Made by a program: the position numbers and the translations under genes. Below are positions 40,101-43,100 of a stretch of DNA of 64,000 bases, piece by piece (the stretch's first letter is position 1; each line of letters begins with the position of its first letter). Source of the DNA: Liolophura sinensis (Eukaryota > Mollusca > Polyplacophora > Chitonida > Chitonidae). Below the pieces are notes generated by a model. The model saw only the letters and a program-made list of their open reading frames with translations, was not told the origin of the DNA and did not search any database. The DNA is taken from positions 37,910,458 to 37,974,457 of the forward strand of contig NC_088300.1 of the NCBI RefSeq assembly GCF_032854445.1. Direction: 5' to 3'.

Positions 40101-43100
40101 TCATATAAGTGAAATATTCTTAAGTACGACGTAAAACACCAATCAAATAAATAAATAAATCACATGTTTGACAGACAAATGTACAAGCAGTCTTCCATAT
40201 CACAATGAACACGTTAGACAGAGAAATATGAGTCCCATCTTACTTGTTGTCACAATCCAAGACCCCCCAACAAACAGTGACAGCAGGGGAATCTAAAAAT
40301 TCTATTCTTTTCTTACCTCATGGTCCTTTTGATTGATCTCTCCTTTAGACAGGTTATGCAGCAGAGCACACAATGTCCTACAAATACAGCAAATATAAAT
40401 ATACACATATATGTATATATATAAACATTCAGCTATATATACATGTAAGCAATAATACACATGCGGCTTACAGAATATATATGAACACATTCAGAGACTT
40501 TATAGACCCCTTACAGAACTATATGACTGTCATGTACAGATCCCAGCACAATACAAGAAACAAGGGGGTATACCTTACCAATCTTATCTTATTCCAATAT
40601 ATGGCTTCTGGACTCCAGACTGAAATTATAGTATGGTGTATGAACACATTGCTGGCTTCCTACACTACTTGTACCATTACACATTACTAGGAAATCTTAG
40701 AGGACTTAATACTACAGAGCTAGCTCATGTTGATGGCAGCTGGTCAGTAAGAGCTTCGTGTGAACAGCCTGTCATCTCTGCAATGTTTACATCACCCGAG
40801 GGACACCCAGGATTAGGTGTGCAAAACATGTTATGTTCCTTCTTTAGGATAGATTGTGAAGGGCACAAGTACAACATGCTGCCATAAATATGACCATACA
40901 TGCAGTATTACCTGTCACTAAACCTCCATATAAGTGGCTCTACTAGAAGTTACCTACAGTGTAGTTACTGCAGACATTTCACTGTGTAAACACCAACTAG
41001 TGCCACTTAAAGTTTACTGTGTAAACACCTCTTAATCTGTTTATCATCAAACAGAGTGTGTAAGAAAAAGGTCGGACAGATCTAGAGCAGAACAGAAACA
41101 ATTCAATCTGCTGGTGTTGCAGGCAGGCCTACAATGCATTGCATAGATTGCTTAGATCAAGTTTCTCTGTTACACCATAACACATGTAGGTAAAAATCCT
41201 GGGGAAGGATAGGTATTATTTTTACGAAAACACTATGCTTTGCATGGACAGGGCACCTTATGAATGAGACCACTTTGGTCATGATGATTACCTGGATATG
41301 ACTAAGTACCGGTAATGGTTGTTTCAATCAACTATCTCAACAGGGCCACAGGCTTTACTAAATGAGATCCCACTTCTTACAGCTTCATGCGTCAAGAATT
41401 AATCTTGTGGTGTGTCATACATGTAGGTGCCTTCCTGTGAAAAAGGGGTTAATTGAGTGGAGGCCCTGAGCAATCCTTGTGTGTGGTAGCTGGTATGAAG
41501 ACTGGCTCAAACTAAGGCTGTGACGATGAGTAAGCCAGCTGTTATTTGTTCATTATCTGCAAGACGCCCCACTATGATGCAATAAATTTTTCTAGACACT
41601 GTTGACAGAGACATGAACATGTGCCTGTAGTCAGACTTGCTGTTACAGAACATGTGCTTGTAGTCAGACTTGGTGTTATAGAACATGTACCTGGAGTCAG
41701 ACTTGGTGTTATAGAACATGTACCTGGAGTCAGACTTGGTGTTATAGAACATGTACCTGGAGTCAGACTTAGTGTTACAGAACGTGCGCCTGTAGTCACA
41801 CTTAGTGTTACAGAACATGTACCTGGAGTCAGACTTGGTGTTATAGTACATGTACCTGGAATCAGACTTGGTGCTATAGAACATGTACCTGGAGTCAGAC
41901 TTGGTGTTACAGAACATGTACCTGGAGTCAGACTTGGTGCTATAGAACATGTACATGTAGTCAGACTTGGTGTTACAGAACATGTACCTGTAGTCAGACT
42001 TGGTGTTATAGAACATGTACCTGGAGTCAGACTTGGTGTTATAGAACATGTACCTGGAGTCAGACTTGGTGTTACAGAACATGTACCTGGAGTCATATTT
42101 GGTGTTACAGAACATGTACCTGGAGTCACACTTGGTTTTACAGAACATGTACCTGGAGTCACACTTGGTTTTACAGAACATGTACCTGTAGTCAGGGTCA
42201 TAGCAGGAGGCATGTAGTGGGGATCGTCCAGATTTGTCACACAAGCTAAACTTGGCACCATGTCTCAACAGATATACCACCCCTTCATACCAGCCCTGAA
42301 ACAAGACAAAACAAGACAATCTATAAGTAGAAAAAAACTTAATTAAATCAGGCCATATTATTAGCAAGTATAGTCTGGGCCAACTGTAGGTACAAATATG
42401 AGAACCTCAAGTTTACAACCTCTAAGCAAAGCGGTTCTGTAGATAATACACACAGTGTTACACACATGAAAAAGCAAACTAAAAACCACAAAGGGGTGGA
42501 ATATCAATGCTGTCAGGATTCATTTTAAATAGGTTTCTGGGCCAACGGTAGTTAGGTATATTGAACACCTTGAGATTTAGAGCTTTAGAAGAATAGTCAA
42601 CCTTTGATAGTTATTACAGATAACAGGTGGAGACAAACCTATTAAAATAGCCTCAGGTATTTTGTTCTGACGGAACTCAACTTTTAATCAACTTTAGAAA
42701 GGCACAGGGTGTGCCATGTTACACCAACAGGAAACCTAATATCTAAGTCCTGCAGATATTTTGGTAACAGCCTGAAAAACCACTACATCATCAAAAACAT
42801 CAAAATCTGTAAAACCTTTGGGATCTATTCGCAAGAGTCTTTGGAACTAGAGGCAGGTACACACGGAAGCTCTACATATGTGAACCACTTCTGTGCACAC
42901 AGTGTCACCACCAAAAAGCAGACAGACAAGTATGTGTCATGTGAAACTCGTCATTAATGGCATGCTTTTGATATTATACAGCCCAGGCATACAGGTATTT
43001 GATAATTTTTCAAGGTATCAGCAAATTACTGAAATCCTGACCCAGCCATGTATGGACCCAAAAAAGGGGCATGATAAAAGACCATCTCTATCATCCTACA

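Follow-up and report, generated by a model that had tools for sequence, protein, structure and literature searches.

The chiton Liolophura sinensis carries, directly after exon 4 of a gene for an ankyrin protein, a minisatellite whose units repeat the 5′ splice site of that exon, which raises the question of whether these copies act as alternative splice donors or are passed over by the spliceosome. The initial annotation of the window (the whole stretch of 64,000 nucleotides analysed here) took the former view and proposed a splice-site ladder, in which the choice among donors would insert a variable number of copies of an 11-residue repeat into the protein.

The donor array of ANKRD55

In terms of gene identity, the assignment to ANKRD55 made in the initial annotation holds at the sequence level. 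In tblastn searches with a provisional sequence of human ANKRD55, successive minus-strand exons match the ankyrin part of the human protein in order and are collinear with its residues 25–305, and the predicted translation gives ankyrin Pfam matches. Exon 5 is too short for a tblastn match and was placed by its splice sites, its phase and an ungapped join. The proposed junction between exon 4 and exon 5 (42186/40377) is supported by the zero-insert join, which aligns with the provisional human sequence over 57 positions, 30 of them identical, with no gap. The features on which the argument depends are as follows.

42186–42295, minus strand: ANKRD55 exon 4, 110 nt long and ending in phase 2, 3′ end GACTACAG, translation ending ...DPDYR; from collinear tblastn matches to human ANKRD55
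42184–42185, minus strand: true donor (GT) that opens intron 4, intron start GTACATG; from the 9-mer CAG/GTACAT
41615–42195, minus strand: minisatellite of 33 bp × 17.6 in which the junction between exon 4 and intron 4 recurs; from TRF
41507–41509, minus strand: in-frame TGA that would terminate an intron-retaining product; from read-through of intron 4
40317–40377, minus strand: ANKRD55 exon 5, 61 nt, with TTGTAG as acceptor and GTAAGA as donor (starting at 40316); from its splice signals, its phase and the join without a gap

The array (TRF period 33, 17.6 copies, 91% matches, score 917) starts 10 bases within exon 4, and its unit closely resembles the final 8–10 exonic bases followed by the intron start, which agrees with the earlier proposal that the minisatellite grew out of the splice donor. 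Downstream of the true donor are 16 further boundary positions, of which 13 read CAG/GTACAT, one reads CAT/GTACAT and two carry GC where GT would stand; the repeat of about 17 units with 13 more CAG/GTAC was thus described correctly. The span of 41507–42295 originally given to it has to be narrowed: the array itself occupies 41615–42195, and 41507 merely marks the read-through stop (TGA, 41509–41507), at which an intron-retaining product would end as predicted.

The reverse history, in which an older intronic minisatellite existed and the donor was relocated into it, is highly improbable. The abundance of minisatellites in the genome, 25% of the window, speaks for it, but the end of the exon aligns ungapped with the human sequence, and the last 8 bases of the exon are near-copied in most units, as GACTCCAG or GACTACAG.

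When the exon 4 end is joined to exon 5 with 0–16 units inserted, every product is open and in frame, so the statement that each donor copy joins the phase 2 exon 5 without a frameshift is correct. The accompanying estimate of insert size stands as an in-frame series, and its maximum of 13 copies does not: splicing from the last good donor would add 15 units, or 165 residues, because units that lack a donor are carried along. The authentic donor, CAG/GTACAT, scores 5.7 bits, at the 19.5th percentile of 128 sampled donors, and 13 of the 16 copies are identical to this 9-mer. As the true site is weak and 13 decoys match it exactly, sequence alone cannot separate the one from the others.

A search of the assembly (609,464,459 bases in 632 contigs) returned one full-length match to the array and four weaker matches of 68–69% identity, three of them on C6; the fourth, L002, which was the one inspected, is a different minisatellite. 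Amphioxus was entertained at first as the origin of the DNA, but the assembly holds eight domain matches to mollusc haemocyanin; GFP family proteins, sought as a marker of amphioxus, gave no match either here or in control genomes. A separate array with a 45-bp unit lies in intron 6 of ANKRD55 (window positions 36890–37334) and has at least one open frame on each strand.

Consequences of an insert for the protein

If internal donors were used often, ANKRD55 would occur with 0–15 copies of the 11-residue repeat, in numbers tracking the length of the array. The 13 identical donors, each giving an open, in-frame join, and the weakness of the authentic donor speak for such a ladder, whereas the ungapped match of the zero-insert join to human ANKRD55 speaks against it. 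Addition of a single unit to the translation shifts the Pfam Ank_2 match from residues 5–88 to residues 50–111, with a drop from 61.4 to 59.1 bits, and reduces the Ank repeats found from three to two (60.8 to 55.4 bits); both losses of score are small. The insert therefore appears to lie within an ankyrin repeat on the basis of the Pfam matches, not between ankyrin units as had been supposed, and this placement also counts against a ladder.

The variation among units looks neutral. Their 16 distinct changes in the coding frame comprise 3 synonymous, 13 non-synonymous and 0 stop changes, against 2.7, 12.6 and 0.65 expected from site counts in a test of weak power; the units fit the neutral expectation and bear no sign of constraint on the peptide, a further point against regular use of the internal donors. 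Across the 17 copies, donor columns carry 0.67 changes per column, slightly fewer than the 1.12 of other columns. With the evidence from sister arrays described below, we find the ladder proposal unsupported and consider it quite unlikely.

Two other ideas were tried and rejected. Concealment of the decoys by RNA structure finds no backing in the fold of 41615–42220, which is unremarkable, being no better than that of shuffled sequences (z = 1.12; 16 of 20 shuffles equalled or exceeded its stability). A retrocopy that would reveal the exon 4–exon 5 junction was sought among genome matches to ANKRD55 (150 of 183 candidates scored). No close processed copy is found among the 28 matches listed, which consist of three of the gene's own exons and 25 ankyrin stretches of just 29–49% identity.

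Boundary arrays in RRP12 and in sampled genes

A second array of this type lies in the neighbouring gene at 55.7–60.7 kb of the window. This gene is RRP12: a query of its joined exons matches PDB chain 7wts_K (E = 2.5e-12), and exons with PF08161 follow just past the window edge; its last exon as the sole query gave no PDB match.

59720–59921, minus strand: RRP12 boundary array, exon end GATGAAG/GTAATG (exon ends at 59921), 18-bp unit × 11.1; from TRF, with the following exon's phase judged by eye

The RRP12 array holds nine more copies of GTAATG, of which 7/9 are in frame and open, so a second in-frame, open array can be added to what favours a ladder. Its GGG/GTAATG copies score 3.7 bits as compared with 6.6 bits for the true donor. 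Overall, 13 exon ends are listed for ANKRD55 and RRP12 in the window, 12 with a clear donor and two within boundary arrays. The chance that a unit is open is 0.51 for the 11 codons of ANKRD55 and 0.69 for the 6 codons of RRP12, and the chance of a suitable length is one third each, which gives a joint chance of about 4% that both arrays are in frame and open. Even so, their in-frame status is probably coincidental.

Several other features of the window are recorded here as observations. Minisatellites cover 25% of it, as compared with 9% of the myosin/kinase sample and 6% of the dynein sample described below. The palindrome ACATGT occurs in units of 8 of the 34 window arrays and 10 of 95 sample arrays, where base-shuffled units predict 0.4 and 1.1, and outside the window arrays it is 3.6-fold above base expectation; it may mark the places where arrays start. 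A homeodomain match (PF00046, E = 5e-7) is found at 19723–20151 on the minus strand, and a run of 200 N at about 61598–61797 (position estimated) represents an assembly gap or a withheld stretch.

We further examined exons sampled from the chiton genome. Every listed match was taken for the myosin head (81) and for dynein AAA1 (90), together with 65 of the 138 kinase matches. The kinase exons were chosen by eye, with likely single-exon or whole-domain matches left out. The resulting sample comprises 236 exons at 136 loci and 235,585 bases, drawn from incomplete lists in which only the best candidates were scored. A boundary array was defined as a tandem array taking in at least 3 exon bases. 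Confident donors were assigned to 206 of the 236 exons (128/146 myosin/kinase, 78/90 dynein), and 12 of these donors lie in boundary arrays (9/128 and 3/78, respectively), a count that includes L140, which takes in just 4 exon bases, and L043, whose true exon copy is uncertain. In L043, at 581–1235, a myosin exon and its donor appear to be tandemly repeated about five times in a 124-bp unit, with copies 98% alike and very short pseudo-introns. Acceptors are found in boundary arrays in 5 of 183 confident cases (4/115 myosin/kinase, 1/68 dynein); in this mirror case the acceptor is repeated at the exon start (L015, L036, L082, L085 and L128).

By a crude expectation, a random point would fall in a founder unit 2.3% of the time. 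The 5.8% seen for donors amounts to at most a mild enrichment over this value, and the 2.7% for acceptors to none. In the myosin/kinase sample, array coverage is 7% at the donor as compared with 10–14% at 60–340 bases into the intron. Coverage at the donor lies below that of the intron interior, which indicates that exon boundaries are not favoured by arrays but are simply not spared.

The 12 sampled donor arrays differ from that of ANKRD55 in their frame. By TRF period, 9 of the 12 have units that are not multiples of three, and the remaining three (66, 267 and 156 bp) have an in-frame stop within the first unit. Use of the first extra donor would therefore cause a frameshift or a stop in 12/12, and none of the 12 is suited to a ladder that leaves the protein intact; this is the sister-array evidence that weighs against a ladder in ANKRD55. 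In the frame-breaking arrays later copies can restore the frame, yet read-through meets a stop first in each. Two of the arrays in this comparison call for care: L134 is a compound repeat, and an indel in L054 displaces the actual copy by 2 bases. For the 95 sampled arrays with a period of at least 9, counted after overlapping ones had been merged, unit lengths divide evenly among the three classes modulo 3 (32/33/30). Selection for frame in boundary arrays, considered as a candidate, was rejected on this sample, given the 9/12 units that are not multiples of three and the 3/12 that contain a stop.

Decoy strength was scored in nine of the 12 arrays, those of the myosin/kinase sample. GT is kept in 44 of 45 decoys, and 25 of the 45 equal or exceed the real donor in score. 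In L033, 16 of 17 decoys are weaker than the real donor and one is at least as strong. The weaker decoys of L033 and RRP12 could mean that their use is selected against. Retention of GT and of strength is what would be wanted for occasional use of internal donors as noise that taxes expression, with misfolded ANKRD55 here and frameshifted, degraded products elsewhere. This account overlaps with the one we prefer, and as a separate explanation we hold it to be rather doubtful: conserved motor and kinase genes often contain boundary arrays, which ought to have been purged there if their cost were heavy.

Known systems and the most probable origin of the array

Tandem alternative 5′ splice sites form a functional class. 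ANKRD55 resembles members of this class in having several in-frame donors at one exon end and differs from them in that the inserted peptide bears no sign of selection and in that use of its internal donors is hypothetical.

The closest likeness is to the mirages of amphioxus, described as minisatellite-like tandem duplications of exon-intron boundaries and reported in Adh, troponin C and the globins BflGb6 and BflGb9, with similar repeats in PGBD5 (PMC3087553; PMC3902484). Mirage units are reported to be about 10–160 bp long and to carry AG/GT in many cases; the arrays vary in length, also somatically, and regular splicing is reportedly undisturbed (PMC3087553; PMC3902484). The ANKRD55 array shares with them tandem units that span an exon-intron boundary and a splice signal in many units (13 extra CAG/GTACAT in 16); it differs in belonging to a mollusc, in its 17 copies and in being in frame throughout. 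The remark that AG/GT copies in mirages could serve as cryptic sites (PMC3087553) lends some weight to splicing noise.

Human genes in segmental duplications are described as having variable tandem repeats, with units of 30 bp on average, at exon-intron boundaries, where they are linked to novel introns; 66% of these intron modifications are accompanied by an alternative transcript in which the repeat remains exonic (PMC2812944). The likeness to ANKRD55 lies in minisatellite-type units at an exon-intron boundary, and since the human repeats can alter splicing, as that report describes, this precedent favours both a ladder and splicing noise. The human cases are recent primate paralogues with transcript evidence and novel introns, whereas chiton ANKRD55 is conserved, is known from its sequence and has gained no new intron. 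The intron-gain model of Rogers, as cited in PMC3087553 and PMC2812944, invokes tandem duplication of AG/GT, and repeated AG/GT units do stand beside the exon in ANKRD55; the repeat is inside an existing intron, however, and no new intron is seen. An abalone gene has an intronic minisatellite that is not described as boundary-spanning (PMC6905558). We found no report of boundary arrays in chitons or molluscs in the open-licence literature.

We consider it most probable, at roughly 0.8, that the ANKRD55 array is a mirage that arose from a boundary-spanning founding duplication, with the exon-end donor used nearly always. By chance, the founding duplication would have covered the junction of exon 4 with intron 4, taking in about 8 exonic and 25 intronic bases, and the duplicated unit would then have expanded into intron 4. 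Exon 4 would have remained intact as the first copy of the array, so that the duplication could be tolerated, and each later copy would carry a donor automatically, by construction. Among these sites, we infer, the spliceosome most likely picks the one at the exon end nearly always and leaves the copies mostly as silent decoys. That the unit is in frame and free of stops would be a matter of chance, of one third for its length times about one half for its openness.

Several observations pull against this origin as a mirage. The weak authentic donor and its 13 identical copies could favour leakage, and alternative transcripts are reported to be frequent for the human boundary repeats (PMC2812944). 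The decoys of L033 and RRP12 are weaker than their true donors, the donor columns of the ANKRD55 units are slightly less variable than the others, and both boundary arrays of the window are in frame and open, against a joint chance of only about 4%. It is unlikely, at our estimate, that the ANKRD55 and RRP12 arrays, as unstable minisatellites, leak to give protein length variants specific to individuals and tissues, with the frame-breaking arrays elsewhere displaying a rule by which the first donor after the exon is taken from up to 18 similar sites.

The ANKRD55 array thus looks, from its sequence, like one of many such accidents in the chiton genome and not like a device for varying protein length. 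What is new is the frequency of boundary minisatellites in a mollusc: in the genes sampled, about 1 donor in 17 (12/206) heads an array of similar donors. Because such arrays are common in these genes, the choice of a donor among many similar sites is directly testable with RNA-seq. If the sampled rate holds, the genome would offer many natural experiments on the choice that the spliceosome makes among near-equal sites, and on how minisatellites could extend exons or seed introns.
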